A stretch of DNA of 64,000 bases from assembly GCF_015169395.1 (NCBI RefSeq), contig NZ_CP063458.1, forward strand, positions 558,001-622,000, read 5' to 3'. The notes under the pieces are model-generated. The model saw only the letters and a program-made list of their open reading frames with translations, did not search any database and was not told where the DNA came from. The position numbers and the translations under genes are program-made. Below, in pieces: positions 13,779 through 20,990 of the stretch; position 1 is the first letter of the stretch, and the number at the start of each line of letters is the position of its first letter. This stretch comes from Humisphaera borealis (lineage in GTDB: Bacteria; Planctomycetota; Phycisphaerae; Tepidisphaerales; Tepidisphaeraceae).

Positions 13779-15689
13779 TCATTCGACGGCAATCTTCAAA
13801 TTCCGCACCGTCCCCTTCAATGCCTCTTTCGCCGTGTAGCTCCCCACCGGCCGGCCGGCGTCGTGGCCGATGCTGAAGTCCTCGGCGGGGTGATTGGGGA
13901 GCAGGCCGGCCGCCTTGCCGGTCACCGGGGGCTCGTCGTTGACAGTGAGTTTCATCGCGCCGTCGGCACCGAGGCTTGCCGTGATCGTCGCGGTTCCGGT
14001 GAACGCGTCGCGGGAAACGATTTCGGTGACGCCGTCGCGGCTGGTGCGGACGACGAACGCCACTTTGCCGTCCTTGATGTGCAGCGCGTAACCGACCGAC
14101 AGTCCGCCATGCGCCACGATGACGGCGTCGCGCTGCATGGTGTCGACGGTGCAGGAGATCGTGAACGGCTTGCCGCCGATCGCGGGGGCGTTGGCCGACG
14201 GGATGACGTCGCCGATCCTGGCGGTGTCGAGCGACTGCGGCTTGCCGGCGGCGGGTGGCTTGTTGTTCTTGCCGGGCTTGGCTGTGGGCTTGGCGTTCTC
14301 GGTGGGATAGAGCGTCGTCGGCTTGGCGGCGACACCGGGCGGCCGGCGGGCGGTGGGGCTCGTGCCGCCAAGTTCGGACTTCATCTTCTCCGCCAGCGCT
14401 GCCAGCTTGGCGACGACGTCGGGGTGCTTGTCGGCGAGGTTGGTCTTCTCGCCGATTTCCTGGTCGAGGTTGTACAGGCGTGGCTTGCCATCGACCACAT
14501 CGGTTGCCGCGGCCTGCCCTTTGATCTCCGGCTGCACGGCGAACGCCAGCTTCCACGGGCCCTGACGCACGGCCTGCAGGTTGTAGCCGGAGAAGTAGTA
14601 GTGCGCTTCGCGCTGCGATTCGGTCGACTTGCCGAACAGCAGGGGAGAGAGGTCGCGGCCGTCGATGACTGGTTCCGCCGGCAGCTTTCCGCCGGCAAGG
14701 GCGACCGCGGTCGGCAGGAGGTCGATCGTGCCGGCGACGGCATCACAGGTGGTGCCCGCTGCGATCCGGCCTGGCCACCAGGCGATCGTCGGCACGCGTA
14801 CGCCGCCTTCCCAGGTGCTCCCCTTCGATCCGCGCAGCGGGCCGGAGCTGCCGCCGTCGGGGCCCTTGATGGCCCAGGGTCCGTTGTCGCTGGTGAAGAC
14901 GACCAGCGTTCGCTCCTGCAGCTTCAATTCCGTCAGCGTGTCGAGGACCTGGCCGACGCTCCAGTCGACTTCCTCCACCCAGTCGCCGAACCGGCCGTTG
15001 GCCGACTTGCCGCGGAACTTCTCGCCCGCATGGATCGGCGTATGCACGGCGGTGTGCGGCAGATAGAGCAGGAACGGCTTGTCCTTGTTGGTGCGGATGA
15101 ACCCGACGGCCTCGGTGGTGTACTTCTCGACAATCCTGCTCTGCGCCTCATCCGTCAGCAGCTCCTCGACCTTGTCGTCGCGCACAAGCGGCACCACGCG
15201 CTGGCCGGTGGCGGTTGCGACCTTCTGCATGTCGTTGGAGTAGGGGATGCCCAAATAATGGTCGAAGCCCTGGCGCGTCGGCAAAAACTCCGGCTGATCG
15301 CCGACGTGCCACTTGCCGATGCAGATGGTCGCGTAGCCCTGCTCCTTCAGTCGCTCGGCGATGGTGTGCTCGGCGGGGTTCAGGCCATTGGCGCCGCCGG
15401 GAGAATAGACGGCGGGAACCGAGACCCGCGCACCGTAGCAGCCGGTCAGGAGTTGCGCCCGCGAAACAGAGCAGACCGGCGCGGCGTAGAAACTCGTCAG
15501 CTTCATCCCCTCGCGGGCCATGCGGTCGAGGTTCGGCGTCTTCTGCTTTGTCGCGCCGTAGGGGCCGATATCGCCGTAACCGAGATCGTCGATGAAGATG
15601 ATCACCACGTTCGGGCGATTCGCTTCGGCAGCTTGAAGCGACATCGGGGCGAGAAATAGGGAAAGTATGAACACATAAGGTAACTTCAT
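13779..15689 (-). CDS. Secreted arylsulfatase (family S1) with C-terminal LamG-like domain
   Basis: The start ATG 15689 follows AAGGA at a good distance and opens a signal peptide (MKLPYVFILSLFLAPMSLQA). The 636-residue enzyme has the metal-binding pair in IIFIDDLGYGD (Asp34/Asp35) and the formylglycine motif CSVSRAQLLTG with the modifiable Cys at 73. Position 3 of the usual CxPSR is Val rather than Pro or Ala. GKWHVGDQPEFLPTRQGFDHYLG and VVFTSDNGPW complete the family signatures. The last 150 residues form a concanavalin-like domain (FTISCTVDTMQRDAVIVAHGG, FSIGHDAGRPVGSY). It should remove sulfate esters from polysaccharides outside the cytoplasm; an anaerobic or FGE-type maturase must be encoded elsewhere. 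It is followed by the DUF1080 gene. Confidence 0.9.
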   Translation of the reverse strand: MKLPYVFILSLFLAPMSLQAAEANRPNVVIIFIDDLGYGDIGPYGATKQKTPNLDRMAREGMKLTSFYAAPVCSVSRAQLLTGCYGARVSVPAVYSPGGANGLNPAEHTIAERLKEQGYATICIGKWHVGDQPEFLPTRQGFDHYLGIPYSNDMQKVATATGQRVVPLVRDDKVEELLTDEAQSRIVEKYTTEAVGFIRTNKDKPFLLYLPHTAVHTPIHAGEKFRGKSANGRFGDWVEEVDWSVGQVLDTLTELKLQERTLVVFTSDNGPWAIKGPDGGSSGPLRGSKGSTWEGGVRVPTIAWWPGRIAAGTTCDAVAGTIDLLPTAVALAGGKLPAEPVIDGRDLSPLLFGKSTESQREAHYYFSGYNLQAVRQGPWKLAFAVQPEIKGQAAATDVVDGKPRLYNLDQEIGEKTNLADKHPDVVAKLAALAEKMKSELGGTSPTARRPPGVAAKPTTLYPTENAKPTAKPGKNNKPPAAGKPQSLDTARIGDVIPSANAPAIGGKPFTISCTVDTMQRDAVIVAHGGLSVGYALHIKDGKVAFVVRTSRDGVTEIVSRDAFTGTATITASLGADGAMKLTVNDEPPVTGKAAGLLPNHPAEDFSIGHDAGRPVGSYTAKEALKGTVRNLKIAVE

Positions 15690-16446: not shown

Positions 16447-16476
16447 CTTGACTCCCGTTAGGAGAAGAAGCGTCGG

Positions 16477-16562
16477 CTGTAGCCGCCGCGTTGACCGGCC
16501 GGGCGGGCGCTCGCGCCGCTCTCGACCCACAGCAACGATACCGCCGGCCCGGTCAGGTTATT
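16477..16562 (-). other. Degenerate attC-like site (site B)
   Basis: On the minus strand an R''-like AATAACC (16556-16562) is followed by TGACCGG-g-CCGG, a loop, and CCGGCCGGTCA, ending in an R'-like GCTACAG (16477-16483) that has lost the GTT. The stem with one unpaired G is the attC layout. It shares GAGCGGCGCGAGCG with the half-site near 17253. Confidence 0.4.
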
Positions 16563-16717
16563 CGACGAACCCGGCCAGCGGTCCGTAAACGACCCCTCGC
16601 CGGTGCAACGTGAACAAGCCGCGGCACTTGCGTTGGAGCAATCCTTTTGGCGTGTAACGGGCGACGCGGCGTTCGTCCTGCGGCATGAAGACGCCGTTCG
16701 TTACAGTGCGTGGCTAG

Positions 16718-17212
16718 TCACCCGGCGCCGTAACACCCGTAGCCTTTGAAATCCTCCTTCAACCAATGATTCCGCCCGAGGCGCAGCAGGTTTTCAAGGA
16801 ACTCGGTAAAGGTCAGGGCGATGACCTTGGCCGCATTCGGATCAGCGAACGTTTCGTGAAACACATCGTAACAGCGACCATAACCGTCTTCGTTCAAATC
16901 GACGACCACAGCATCCGAGCCGTCCGGCTTGCCGATGCCGAACCAACCGTCCAGGGGTGGTTCCAAATAGTATTCATCGCCGATCGTGGCCATGCAGACG
17001 TTTACCACTTCGGAGGGGGCCACAATCTGATACCGCGGGTAAGGGTCACCGACCTTGTCGAGAAGTCCGATGCCGCCGCACAGATCGTAGAAACGCGTTA
17101 CTTCTGTCGGAAGCTTGAAGGGTTTAGGAATGTTCGGCGCACCCGCAGGCGGAAGCAGGTGACAGAGCGGGTTTACTTTTGCGCGGCGAACAATATCTTC
17201 GATCGTCGACAT
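16718..17212 (-). CDS. SMI1/KNR4 (SUKH) family protein, cassette gene
   Basis: The 164-residue product starts at ATG 17212 (MSTIEDIVRRAKVNPLCHLLPPAGAPN). It carries the SUKH pattern: an N-terminal helix, EVTRFYDLCGGIGLLD (the 'LP.d...fy...nGg..l' block), YQIVAPSEVVNV, and WFGIGKPDGSDAVVVDLN, ending in a helix FTEFLENLLRLG. SUKH proteins are frequent immunity proteins of toxin systems and frequent integron-cassette cargo; here no toxin gene is adjacent, so the immunity role is inference. It lies between attC-like site A/half-site (17238-17380) and site B (16477-16562), oriented with the rest of the array. Confidence 0.75.
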   Translation of the reverse strand: MSTIEDIVRRAKVNPLCHLLPPAGAPNIPKPFKLPTEVTRFYDLCGGIGLLDKVGDPYPRYQIVAPSEVVNVCMATIGDEYYLEPPLDGWFGIGKPDGSDAVVVDLNEDGYGRCYDVFHETFADPNAAKVIALTFTEFLENLLRLGRNHWLKEDFKGYGCYGAG

Positions 17213-17237: not shown

Positions 17238-17380
17238 CGCTTAACGGCCCGGCCGCTCGCGCCGCTCCAAATCAACTGGCTGACTAACGGACAGACGTTC
17301 AGCGGCCGGGCGGGCACCGGACGTACTCTTGAACGACAAGGACCGCGACGCCCGCCCGGTCCGCTGCAATGCCTGATTAT
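17238..17380 (-). other. attC-like site A (17281-17380) plus adjoining half-site
   Basis: On the minus strand the site runs from GATAATC (17374-17380, containing the TAA stop of the upstream gene) through GCAGCGG-a-CCGGGCGGGC, a loop, and GCCCGCCCGG-CCGCTG, to the core GTTAGTC (17281-17287). The arms pair with one unpaired A, the hallmark of integron attC sites. The length is 100 bp, as in site E (18322-18421), and the two are clearly homologous through the loop. A second right-half with GTTAAGC, a perfect GTTRRRY, follows at 17238-17244. Confidence 0.75.
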
Positions 17381-17634
17381 CCCGCCCGTCGTCGGGCCGT
17401 ACAAGCAGGACACACGAAGTTCCATTCCTCAGCCAGCAGTTCCCAGCCGTCCGCCTGGGCTCGGGCGGAAACCGCGACACAACCGCGCAGGAACTCATCC
17501 TCCTCGTCGCCGAATCCGGCCAACATCTCGTCGTTCCAAGTGAGGAACGCATCGCAGTCTTTGCAGTTGAAGCCGCCCAGCAAGTTGGCGTTGGAGTGCC
17601 AGAGGTTTTCGTGGTTGTACAGCGGCTGGGCCAT
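17377..17634 (-). CDS. Small CxxC zinc-ribbon-like cassette protein
   Basis: An 85-residue cytosolic protein with two Cys pairs, CKDC near residue 25 and CPAC near residue 77, compatible with one zinc site. The sequence between them (FLTWNDEMLAGFGDEEDEFLRGCVAVSARAQADGWELLAEEWNFV) is acidic and probably helical. I do not recognise a named family. ATG 17634 lies just after attC-like site C, and its TAA stop lies inside the R''-like box of site A, as expected for an integron cassette gene. No separate promoter is visible. Confidence 0.6.
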   Translation of the reverse strand: MAQPLYNHENLWHSNANLLGGFNCKDCDAFLTWNDEMLAGFGDEEDEFLRGCVAVSARAQADGWELLAEEWNFVCPACTARRRAG

Positions 17635-17639
17635 GGCGA

Positions 17640-17681
17640 GCTAACGGACTGACATTCACTGGTGGGCCCGGCACCGTTAGC
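17640..17681 (-). other. Short attC-like site C
   Basis: GCTAACGG and CCGTTAGC form perfect inverted ends 42 bp apart, around GTGCCGGGCCCACC. The TAA stop of the gene ending at 17677 is within the first box. The site is short for an attC, so it is less certain than A and E. Confidence 0.5.
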
Positions 17682-18303
17682 GGCATTTCGTCGGTGCAGT
17701 GGTCGCCTGCGGCGGAACGCGGGCCGGCCACACGAAGATTCTGGAGGCAACGCCCTTCGGAGGCATCGCCTTCACTAGCATATTCGGCTTCAACTCATCG
17801 AGCTTCATTGGGCCACCTTCGTCCCATGTGGCGCCCACGAAGGAGGCGATGCGGATGATCCTTGTATCCTTGTCCGCTTGAACGACGGGCGACACTGGCC
17901 CGGTGCCGCTCGGTGCCTTCCTGAGATGAATTGCACCGCCGTCCACCTTGCTGATTAGACCAGTCGATGACGGTGACCATGCGTGGATGATCAATGGCGG
18001 CTTTGGCTCTTGATCCGTGGGGGCTTCCCGCCTGGCAGTTATGTCCATCCCACCCTGAAGCTTGTCCAACGCGCTCCTCTCATTGTCGAGAATCACTCGA
18101 GCCTGTTGGTCGGTCTCCACGGCGATGGGCGGCGCGTCGGGTGGCCGCCACGAGGGCTGAATCACCAGTAGCGTCCCGTCAACCTTAATGAGGGTTCCAG
18201 CCTTCAACAGACGCTGAGTTGTACGCTGCGTCGTTTGCGCAAAGGCAACAACCGCAACGAACCCGATCAACGCGGTTGCTGACAGCCAGCGGACGATTAG
18301 CAC
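17677..18303 (-). CDS. Exported cassette protein with two similar beta domains
   Basis: I place the start at GTG 18303 because AGGAG lies 7 bp upstream and a signal peptide follows at once (LIVRWLSATALIGFVAVVAFAQ). The 208-residue product has two similar halves: LIKVDGTLLVIQPSW...VETDQQARVIL...LDKLQGGMDITA and ISKVDGGAIHLRKAP...VVQADKDTRIIR...LDELKPNMLVKAM. This VDG...D..T.I....L..L..G..V plan resembles repeated OB-like DUF5666-type domains. The function is unknown. It lies between attC-like sites E and C, and its TAA stop is part of site C. Confidence 0.6.
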   Translation of the reverse strand: MLIVRWLSATALIGFVAVVAFAQTTQRTTQRLLKAGTLIKVDGTLLVIQPSWRPPDAPPIAVETDQQARVILDNERSALDKLQGGMDITARREAPTDQEPKPPLIIHAWSPSSTGLISKVDGGAIHLRKAPSGTGPVSPVVQADKDTRIIRIASFVGATWDEGGPMKLDELKPNMLVKAMPPKGVASRIFVWPARVPPQATTAPTKCR

Positions 18304-18321
18304 GAACACGCTCCTGTAGCG

Positions 18322-18421
18322 GGACAACGGACCGACGTCCAGCGGCCGGACAAGCACCGACCACTCGAATTACGACGACCGCGACGCGCGCCCGGCCGGT
18401 CCACTGCAGTGTTGGGTTAGC
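18322..18421 (-). other. attC-like site E
   Basis: On the minus strand the upstream gene's TAA is part of GCTAACCC, followed by ACCCAAC (a perfect RYYYAAC R'' box), CTGCAGTGG-a-CCGGCC, a loop, GGCCGCTGgac and GTTGTCC at 18322-18328. It is 100 bp long and homologous to site A, including GTCGCGGTC and the CCGGCCGCTG arm. Confidence 0.75.
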
Positions 18422-18884
18422 CTGCGGCCGGACCGCCGCAGTTTGCGAAGCCCGGTCCACCATGATATCCGCGACCGCGGATCAACACCGATTCAGAAGT
18501 CGACGCGACTTCGTCCACCGAATTGATCATGAACCGCGCTTTAGCCGAAGGCGGGTGCGGCAAAAACGCCTCGAAGACGTTCTCATAGATGAAGACCTCG
18601 ACCAATTCGAACGTCGTTTCGGCGTTATCGAGGACCGTCTCTAGCGAAGGATACCCGGCGTCTCGTAATGGCGAGCGTTGTTGATCGGCTACGAGGCGAT
18701 CGTCCTCCTGTAATTCACGAACACACTGCGCGTAGACGCCCGAAAGCCGTTGCACAAAGTCCGCTCTCGGGATTCGGAGTTCGTACCGACCGATGGTGCC
18801 ATCCCATCTGAATTGGTCGAAGTTCATCGCCGGCCACCAAAGAGCGTCCGGAGCAACTGGATTGTCTTCGACCTTCGCGAGCAT
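18417..18884 (-). CDS. Cassette gene of unknown function
   Basis: A 155-residue soluble protein (MLAKVEDNPVAPDALWWPAMNFDQFRWDGTIGRYELRIPRADFVQRLSGVYAQCVREL...) with no signal peptide and no family I recognise. Its acidic mid-part and aromatic-rich N-terminus do not point to an enzyme. It starts 12 bp after the core of attC-like site D and its TAA stop lies within site E, so it fills one cassette exactly. The C-terminus GRGYHGGPGFANCGGPAAG is Gly-rich and low in complexity. Confidence 0.55.
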   Translation of the reverse strand: MLAKVEDNPVAPDALWWPAMNFDQFRWDGTIGRYELRIPRADFVQRLSGVYAQCVRELQEDDRLVADQQRSPLRDAGYPSLETVLDNAETTFELVEVFIYENVFEAFLPHPPSAKARFMINSVDEVASTSESVLIRGRGYHGGPGFANCGGPAAG

Positions 18885-18895
18885 CGTTCCCCGCA

Positions 18896-18952
18896 GGCTA
18901 ACGGATCAGCATTTCACGGCCGGCCTGGCACCGTGGCAGTGCGTCGTAAGCC
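18896..18952 (-). other. attC-like site D
   Basis: A 57-bp site from GGCTTACGAC through CACGG-t-GCC / GGC-CGTG arms to GTTAGCC (18896-18902). It lies between a gene remnant and the cassette gene starting at 18884. Confidence 0.55.
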
Positions 18953-18959
18953 AGCCTCT

Positions 18960-19112
18960 TTACAAGCACTCGTACTTCTCAGTGTCGTCGACATAGAGTA
19001 GTGAAGCAATTCGCCACTCCCCGGCTTTCTGCACAAGCTGGTATTCGTAGTCTGAGACAAAGTCGTAAAGGCCCAAATGCCTAGTTCGAACGGTGGCGTC
19101 AGGACCGCGCGC
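18960..19112 (-). pseudogene. C-terminal remnant of a cassette gene
   Basis: An open frame of about 50 codons ends at TAA 18960-18962 and reads ...RTRHLGLYDFVSDYEYQ, then LVQKAGEWRIASLLYVDD, then TEKYECL. It has no start codon and is blocked by TGA at 19113-19115. The ending looks like the last strands of an NTF2/SnoaL-like domain. It is probably the tail of a cassette gene truncated by deletion; the DNA is also clearly less GC-rich than its neighbours. Confidence 0.4.
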
Positions 19113-19183
19113 TCAAAATTTACTGTTGACCAAGAGCGGGATTCATAGTTGTCGGGTTATCCCGCGGCCGGACCACCGACTAC

Positions 19184-19675
19184 TCAGATGCGCTCGGTCT
19201 TCAGGCCCAGCTCGCGGCATTGCCGCTCCGCGTCCTCGACGTTGTACTCGTAGAACCGCCCGAGGTTCCATGTCGGCGCGTCACCGACGAGCGACACCAC
19301 TGACGGCAGGGGCGTGTCCCGCAAGGTCGGGTCCAGCTTCCGGAGCGCCATCAGTTCCTTGGCGGTTGCCCGTGGCCCTGCGAACTGTACGATCAGCTCG
19401 TAGTAGCAGTGTGGGATGATCGTCTCGTGTAGGGGCACATGGCCGACGACCATCCCCGACCGGACGACCGCAAGACCTGTCCAACCGCCCTGGTCGTACC
19501 ACCGCAGGTCGTCACCCGGCCGCATCGTCGCCGCGAGATCCCTCACTTGCTGGCGCATCCCCTCGTAGACGTGCCGCCGTTCCGGGTGCGACTCGAAGGC
19601 GGGACCCGTCCACAATCCGAGCACGTCGGCTTCGGTCGTGGGCTTTAAAAGGCTCTCGGCTGCGATGCCGCTCAT
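19184..19675 (-). CDS. First cassette gene, unknown function
   Basis: A 163-residue soluble protein (MSGIAAESLLKPTTEADVLGLWTGPAFESHPERRHVYEGMRQQVRDLAATMRPGDDLRWYD...). The pattern DDLRWYDQGGWTGLAVVRSGMVVGHVPL resembles small beta-rich proteins commonly found in integron cassettes, but I cannot name a family. It begins 30 bp after the GTTAGGAT core next to the integrase remnant, which would make it the first cassette. Downstream an ACCCGAC box (19149-19156) could be the left half of an attC site whose right half is gone. Confidence 0.6.
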   Translation of the reverse strand: MSGIAAESLLKPTTEADVLGLWTGPAFESHPERRHVYEGMRQQVRDLAATMRPGDDLRWYDQGGWTGLAVVRSGMVVGHVPLHETIIPHCYYELIVQFAGPRATAKELMALRKLDPTLRDTPLPSVVSLVGDAPTWNLGRFYEYNVEDAERQCRELGLKTERI

Positions 19676-19704
19676 AGCCGCGTCCCGCGGGATAACCTTT
19701 GTTT

Positions 19705-19712
19705 ATCCTAAC
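19705..19712 (-). other. Candidate attI core (GTTAGGAT)
   Basis: GTTAGGA fits the GTTRRRY integration core except the last base. It sits between the integrase fragment (start 19838, plus strand) and the first cassette gene (start 19675, minus strand), where attI lies in mobile and chromosomal integrons. A small hairpin GGATAA/TTATCC follows. Confidence 0.4.
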
Positions 19713-19837
19713 CGCCCGGACACCCCGCGCGGATGGTCCTCTGGACAATAGCCGCTGGCGCTAGTGCCATCAACGAATTCGCAAGAGACAGCAAGAATTA
19801 TCTTGTTCAGGCCGAACAAAACTGTAACATTTGCTGC

Positions 19838-20020
19838 GTGAACCTCGTCGAACGCCTCGATCGTGCCTGTCGGCTGGCTTATCCGGCTCGCTCTACCCGC
19901 GAGCGATACATCCGCTGGGTTGAACAGTTCCGCCGGTTGCCGGTGACAAGAGCGTCGGTCGGCGATCGCCACGGGCAAGCGGGTACGCTTGCCCATGCCA
20001 CCCGGAATCCGAACGACTGA
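19838..20020 (+). pseudogene. Integron integrase (IntI-like) N-terminal fragment
   Basis: From GTG 19838 the frame reads VNLVERLDRACRLAYPARS, then TRERYIRWVEQFRRLP. It aligns with the first helices of integron integrases (pattern LD..R...R...YS.RTE.AYV.WV..FI.F), with the RxxYxxWxxxF core retained. Homology ends at about 19945. The following codons run into a palindromic repeat (19968-20003) and a stop at 20018, so the catalytic domain is missing. Orientation is opposite to the cassette array and the 5' end faces it, as in complete integrons. The match is short, so this is a recognition by pattern, not proof. Confidence 0.55.
19968..20003. repeat. Palindromic repeat that interrupts the IntI-like fragment
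   Basis: GCCACGGGCAAGC and GCTTGCCCATGCC are imperfect inverted arms around GGGTAC. It starts about 20 bp after the last integrase-like codons and could mark the truncation point. Confidence 0.6.
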
Positions 20021-20283
20021 CGACTGACGGATTTTGCTTGTCTTTAGCGGCCGTGCACCTAACATATATAGAACAATATTCGGCGTCGCCTTGGGACGGG
20101 CGGCGTCCTTCCTCCATGCGCCGGTCGGCGGGTGTGATCTGTCGGCTTTAGCGTCTACTCCATGGAGACTGCTGTCCCTGGACGATCGGTGTCGGTCGGG
20201 CCGGGGTGGTGGTGTTGGTGCTTTGAGGAGACCGACAGGCTTGGACGCGAAAGAGACGACGTGGGCAGGCTGATCGATCACTT

Positions 20284-20990
20284 GGGTTCGTTCGGCGATG
20301 TTGTCTTGGGTTCGTTCGGCCACCAAGCCGCGGGCGCAGCGTACTCTCTGCGCCCCGGGTTTGCCGGTGTGGTCTCGGGTTCGTTCGGCAGGAGGGACAT
20401 ATGTCAGGGATTGACGACGGCTCTGTCAGTGACACGGGCTTCCAGCCCGTGCGTGCGACGTTGTGGTCGATCGGTGCTCCGAACGATGACCTCCGAGCTT
20501 CTATTACATCGTCATCACTGCCAACTATTTACTGGTTGATAGGAAAAGAGATGCAGAATGAACGGCTGCTTGAAGCATCACGCACCATGCACGGGCTGGA
20601 AGCCCGTGTCACTGACGGGGTCGCTCGGCGAGCGGTTCTCGGGTTCGTTTGGCGGGGTTGCGGTGGGTTCGATTGGCGCGGGGCGGGACATCGGACGGCG
20701 GGAGCATCGCCGGGGGTCTGCGGGGTGCGGTGGGGTGAACCCCACCCTACTTTCGCCTCGGGTTCGTTCGGCGGGGTTGCGCTGGGTTCGTTCGGCAATC
20801 TAAGCGTGGCGATCCGGTGTTCGATGTTTAGTTTTCGGTGTTCGTCTTCAGTCTTGGGTTCGTTCGGCGAGGTTGCGCGAACGCTCCGCTCCGCGTCGCG
20901 GCTAACCGTTCACGGGTGTCGTGGTCGATCTGATCGGGTGTCGTGGTCGCGCTGATCGAGGGTTGTCCGACCATGCTGGGTTCGTTTGGC
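20284..20990 (+). repeat. Cluster of GGGTTCGTTCGGC 13-mers
   Basis: Exact copies lie at 20284-20296, 20308-20320, 20377-20389, 20760-20772, 20784-20796 and 20856-20868. Near copies (TTTGGC or GATTGGC) lie at 20641-20653, 20664-20676 and 20978-20990. All are in one orientation at irregular spacing, often followed by GGGGTTGCG. The spacing is unlike CRISPR. Confidence 0.88.
20425..20616. mobile_element. MITE-like element with 28-bp terminal inverted repeats
   Basis: Arms 20425-20452 and 20589-20616 are perfect complements over 28 bp; each contains the palindrome CACGGGCTTCCAGCCCGTG. The 136-bp interior codes for nothing visible. No target-site duplication is obvious. Confidence 0.7.

Follow-up and report, generated by a model that had tools for sequence, protein, structure and literature searches.

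Two similar sites of about 100 bp in the chromosome of Humisphaera borealis, here called A and E, raise two questions, namely whether they are attC recombination sites of an integron array and whether their likeness records how that array grew. The original prediction answered both in the affirmative, reading the identity between the sites, as in the VCRs of Vibrio, as a sign that the host's own integron had built the array. We found that A and E are ordinary attC sites, and that the unusual part is the set of multi-copy, mostly dead integron heads in the same chromosome. Positions below are those of the window, the whole stretch of 64,000 nucleotides that was analysed, unless a chromosome, contig or other locus is named.

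Two attC sites in an eroded array

Sites A (17282–17382) and E (18322–18422), numbered attC 5 and attC 3 in the array, lie on the minus strand at the predicted places and are of equal length, 101 bp each by the model boundaries. A and E alike have the arms GCAG(C/T)GGACCGG and GGCCGCTG together with the loop GCGTCGCGGTC, and the TAA of each upstream ORF is indeed inside the R'' box, at 17377–17379 in GGATAAT (A) and at 18417–18419 in GGCTAAC (E). These stop codons within R'' place both sites at the 3' end of a cassette gene, where attC sites are found. Site E ends with AAC and GTT and site A with AAT and GTT, the R'' box of A having lost its conserved C. Aligned over their whole length the two sites show 71% pairwise identity, and a whole-genome blastn search with E returned A and two more copies (4678010 and 5095860 on the chromosome, E-value <= 1.3e-9).

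Two covariance models were used to extend these observations. R1 was made from five sites aligned with their stem structure (A, E, the two blastn copies and one site beside the integrase gene), and R2 from 64 sites from 11 genomes. A scored 114.8 bits and E 88.9 bits with R1, but as both were training sites these scores do not count as independent support, which comes instead from the other sites and from the association with intI. The further sites found by the models, this association and stem covariation agree in identifying both as attC sites within an integron array.

Folding gave a divided result. Compared with shuffled sequences, the bottom strand of A folded better (z = -3.5), whereas that of E did not (z = +1.5). 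Using DNA parameters, the predicted folding of the bottom strand to the recombination structure was ~2e-5 for E, ~4e-3 for A and 0.83 for the site adjacent to intI. Across this genome's sites the median number of intact stem pairs was 8.5 of the 10 tested, versus 10 of 10 in relatives. E is thus predicted no longer to fold well.

The array contains at least six attC sites, several of them eroded, and all of its parts are on the minus strand. At its head is a 92-bp block (19691–19782), described by a third model, R3. The block is an attI-like site (attI-II) ahead of the first cassette, ending in GGTTATCC, the presumed cassette insertion point. Cassette 1 has an ORF of 163 aa without a Pfam match (19184–19675). 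Its attC 1 is cut by an insertion sequence, only the 5' (R'') part being present (19148–19162, GGATAACCCGACAAC), as judged from the sequence and from the junction, which is the same as in the 4.16- and 7.16-Mb IS copies. Adjoining it are 53 bp left over from the end of an IS1111/IS110-type element (19095–19147), with 98% identity to the terminus of the 7.16-Mb copy (1582 bp). The translated 3' end (...LVQKAGEWRIASLLYVDDTEKYECL*) of a broken cassette 2 gene follows (18953–19094), and then a short attC 2 of 57 bp (18896–18952; R1 23.0 bits, E-value 2.7e-4; R2 22.4 bits). Cassettes 3 (155 aa, 18417–18884) and 4 (210 aa, 17677–18309) have ORFs without Pfam matches. The attC 4 site (17639–17684) has an internal deletion, retaining an R'' of CTAAC and the L'/R' CCAGTGAATGTCAGTCCGTTAGC, and was recognised by visual comparison with intact sites (e.g. 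485974); it was not called by R1 or R2. Cassette 5 has an ORF of 85 aa (17377–17634) and cassette 6 encodes a SUKH-1 (SMI1/KNR4) protein of 164 aa (16718–17212; PF09346, E-value 4.9e-6). The last site, attC 6 (16475–16571), is strongly decayed and its R boxes are gone (R1 38.1 bits; R2 38.9 bits, E-value 4.3e-9).

The array is not adjoined by an intact intI, and only a 35-codon stub (VNLVERLDRACRLAYPARSTRERYIRWVEQFRRLP) is found at the window locus, on the plus strand and divergent to the array (19838–19942). This putative remnant of the start of an integron integrase gene matches PF13495 (E-value 3.5e-4), an N-terminal domain also present in the intact IntI, and shares 70% identity over 27 aa with a stub beside the attC array of another genome of the order (G006). 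It also matches an IntI profile, A7, with an E-value of 2.3e-8, but is itself one of the five rows of that profile. A search of NCBIfam with the stub gave zero matches. Taken alone, the stub points only weakly to an integrase remnant.

The single intact IntI in the genome lies at 6.02 Mb (333 aa; 347 bits against the TIGR02249 cut-off of 265). By eye it has the usual tyrosine-recombinase motifs, and its gene is adjoined by a divergent cassette gene and an attC site of the A/E family. Its nearest named relatives are in Phycisphaerales bacterium UBA2421 and a Phycisphaerae bin. Beside the intact intI, a stretch of an rsmH-like methyltransferase gene recurs on the far side of the first cassette (locus L009, 8740–8860 and 11260–11380). 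Further intI stubs occur at 2.105 Mb (52 aa) and, more weakly, at 0.487 Mb, and in genome G010 one array is accompanied by a second intI, which is broken.

A and E are, very probably, attC sites closing the 3' ends of cassettes, and the array to which they belong a decayed chromosomal integron of this Phycisphaerae planctomycete, presumably built at 19691–19782. In integrons, IntI recombines attC with attI through the folded bottom strand of attC. An integrase would have joined the folded bottom strand of the attC of circular cassettes to the attI-like site at 19691–19782, and the cassette nearest attI would then be the newest. The integrase gene beside this site may have been lost later, leaving the 35-codon stub. 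Erosion affects several attC sites, and an IS1111-type element of the kind targeting attC has split one of the array's sites. The intact IntI at 6.02 Mb could at best act on the other heads in trans.

An empty site was not readable in the only other genome of the same genus (G005), as the flanking KBL-like gene is kept there with another gene on the array side; the neighbourhood differs from the window beyond this one flanking gene. A plasmid collection searched with the site region gave zero matches.

Repeated attI-like heads on one chromosome

On this chromosome R3 detected six copies of the attI-II block, at 577691, 7162274, 163443, 161875, 4677427 and 3813595, the block having first been spotted beside these arrays and the model built from five of its own copies. 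Every copy precedes cassette-like genes with attC, although at 163443 only the 5' half of an attC is present, near 164158. The sequence shared among the copies stops at the GTT box, where the differing cassettes start. Judged from sequence, the position and orientation of the six copies make the block a candidate attI with a GTT insertion point. Outside this genome R3 gave one weak match, in another genus (G006), beside the IntI-like stub and attC sites, and zero matches in the other 24 genomes of the order. A second type of head is found at the intact intI, with the 52-aa stub at 2.105 Mb and, by eye, at 5.095 Mb. The chromosome has at least seven integron platforms and only one intact integrase gene. 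In the array at 5.096 Mb, one cassette gene has a PARG-like C-terminal domain (PF05028; L014, 1607–2596).

The window segment at 20018–20330 is a dispersed repeat of ~0.3–1 kb, also present at ~14 other places (e.g. L145, L148, L150 and L151), which passes into clustered short repeats of the GGGTTCGTTCGGC type. Of its ~15 copies, six are near integron places and the rest are without clear attC. Its presence near six integron places exceeds what is expected from scattered placement, and some heads are without the repeat. An alternative reading is that the attI-like block is no attI, but only the edge of a composite dispersed repeat (20018–20330 and its neighbours) lying near cassettes by chance, a reading in keeping with the six copies close to integron places. 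However, at 7162274 the attI block is found without the repeat, several repeat copies are without the attI block, and the weak match in G006 is beside an IntI stub and attC sites, which makes this explanation unlikely.

In total, R1 found ~21 attC sites at 12 places on the 7.19-Mb chromosome, and R2 ~23 when weak ones are counted. Most of the 12 places are distant from the intact intI and single cassettes occur, a pattern that would also arise if cassettes had landed at scattered genomic sites other than attI to give bare attC clusters (CALINs). Both CALINs at several Xanthomonas loci and the insertion of cassettes into attG sites are reported (PMC12444791). At five of the 12 places, however, there is an attI-like block (in two copies at one place), and IntI stubs occur at the window and 2.1-Mb places, so that at least these look like former integrons; such scattered landing is an unlikely origin for the array of A and E. 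The CALINs and decayed integrons of Xanthomonas similarly lie away from intact intI, and truncated intI is common among them (PMC12444791), whereas here the attI-like heads, some with IntI stubs, are repeated in one chromosome.

A single platform per chromosome is the usual description of integrons. We found no earlier report of repeated attI-like heads in one chromosome in a limited literature search, and nothing relevant on Phycisphaerae attC or multiple integrons. A tentative possibility is that the many heads (six of attI-II, several of the second type) took different cassettes and share the single working integrase; platforms themselves would then multiply, with a single IntI acting in trans on many attI sites. 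A closed genome in which several attI-like heads occur, most of them lacking a working integrase, would demonstrate duplication and decay of platforms and would allow a test of a single integrase serving several capture sites.

In another genome (G004), the ends of contigs C5, C7 and C41 (L137, L132 and L133) share an intI start, and C7 and C41 also share attI, followed by differing cassettes. These contigs could reflect two platforms or, alternatively, variation at attI among strains. As their overlap of exactly 141 bp resembles an assembly branch, we did not count them as multiple platforms.

Identity and conserved anatomy of the attC family

The inference from the likeness of A and E to growth by the host's own integron did not hold. 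Mean pairwise attC identity was 0.667 within arrays, 0.668 within genomes at other places and 0.669 between genomes, hence the similarity of A and E is silent on such growth. Nor are the two sites mutual closest relatives. The nearest relative of A is in the same genome (5095849, 0.881), followed by a site in another genus (G004, 0.861), and E falls outside A's eleven nearest, while A is the sixth nearest of E (0.714). R1 was seeded from this genome, a sample bias which should favour within-genome similarity, and the absence of such similarity is therefore telling. An array built in the manner of VCRs, from the host's own homogeneous attC sites, would fit with A and E falling in one broad sequence cluster and with nearest neighbours being in the same genome more often than under label shuffling (18 versus 8 expected, p = 0.003). 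This excess may, however, come from the seeding itself, and with equal mean identity at all three levels and A closer to sites of other genera than to E, we consider VCR-like growth very unlikely. The Vibrio VCR arrays are likewise chromosomal attC arrays of mostly unknown genes, but here the sites are heterogeneous within array and genome, and the arrays are short and dispersed. Subtypes of attC recur across genera, which points to cassette movement between related planctomycetes.

The A/E family is conserved in its fold. Its layout comprises an R'' box (RNATAAC), 9 nt, a six-base stem, an unpaired A, more stem, the loop, the stem, 11 nt and an R' box (GTTATNC). R'' ends with AAC in 50 of 58 family sites and R' starts with GTT in 52 of 58, forming the inverted repeat of attC. 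On the L'' side, the extrahelical bases typical of attC are present as an unpaired G ahead of the stem (64 of 64 sites) and the unpaired A (63 of 64). The stem covariation score was 0.317, compared with 0.128 in shuffles and 0.026–0.057 in slid controls, and 166 compensatory cells were counted versus 61 in shuffles, as expected of a conserved fold. The bottom strand of such a site, once folded, would be the presumed substrate of IntI. In the family alignment (A4, columns 69–75), the terminal loop has a conserved TTCGA-type motif. The terminal part of attC is usually variable.

These features place the family alongside the attC of chromosomal integrons, with which it shares the AAC and GTT ends of R'' and R', paired L arms with extrahelical bases, a spacer and a terminal part, as well as the position at the 3' end of cassette genes. 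It differs in its unusually conserved terminal loop and in its first extrahelical base, a G on the top strand in all sites and hence a C on the bottom strand. The textbook attC extrahelical base on the bottom strand is a G. A covariance model for Planctomycetes attC has been published (PMC8352920).

Sites of the family were present in 12 of 26 genomes of the order, including all four with a full-length IntI (G010, G011, G025 and this genome). In G010 (contig C9) six sites come after the integrase, at 15424, 15933, 16356, 16874, 17555 and 18074, in tandem and in the single expected orientation. The other 14 genomes, one of them 7.5 Mb, had zero R1 matches at E <= 1e-4, so a GC-rich background is not the source of the sites. 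At the inspected loci the sites lie behind cassette-like ORFs, and the GC-rich dispersed repeat inside operons that would have spoken against the original prediction was not seen. Although the genome is rich in dispersed repeats (~15 copies of the 20018–20330 block), a GC-rich dispersed repeat, or a hairpin resembling a terminator, with no relation to integrons has a negligible probability given the 14 of 26 related genomes without sites and the tandem arrays beside intact intI, with conserved GTT/AAC ends, unpaired bases and covariation, and is ruled out by the co-occurrence with intI in these four genomes.

An IS1111-type element inside attC

An IS1111/IS110-type element of ~1.58 kb interrupts three attC sites of the genome, each at an identical point. 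Two copies have attC halves on both flanks and a third copy on one flank; those at 4.160–4.163 and 7.162–7.164 Mb (L078 and L079) measure 1582–1586 bp. The transposase matches PF02371 and PF01548, and the noncoding region is short at the 5' end and long at the 3' end. The element at 4.16 and 7.16 Mb shows both a DEDD/Transposase_20 transposase and repeated insertion at the same position, as in the IS1111 group that targets attC. Such elements are already known, namely ISKpn4 and ISPst6, which share the DEDD/Transposase_20 transposase, the short 5' and long 3' noncoding regions and one insertion point across attC sites (PMC11187229); here, by comparison, the host is a planctomycete. Elsewhere, at G000:C1:3346462-3348829, three adjacent tyrosine recombinase ORFs (336, 349 and 328 aa) resemble a recombinase trio.
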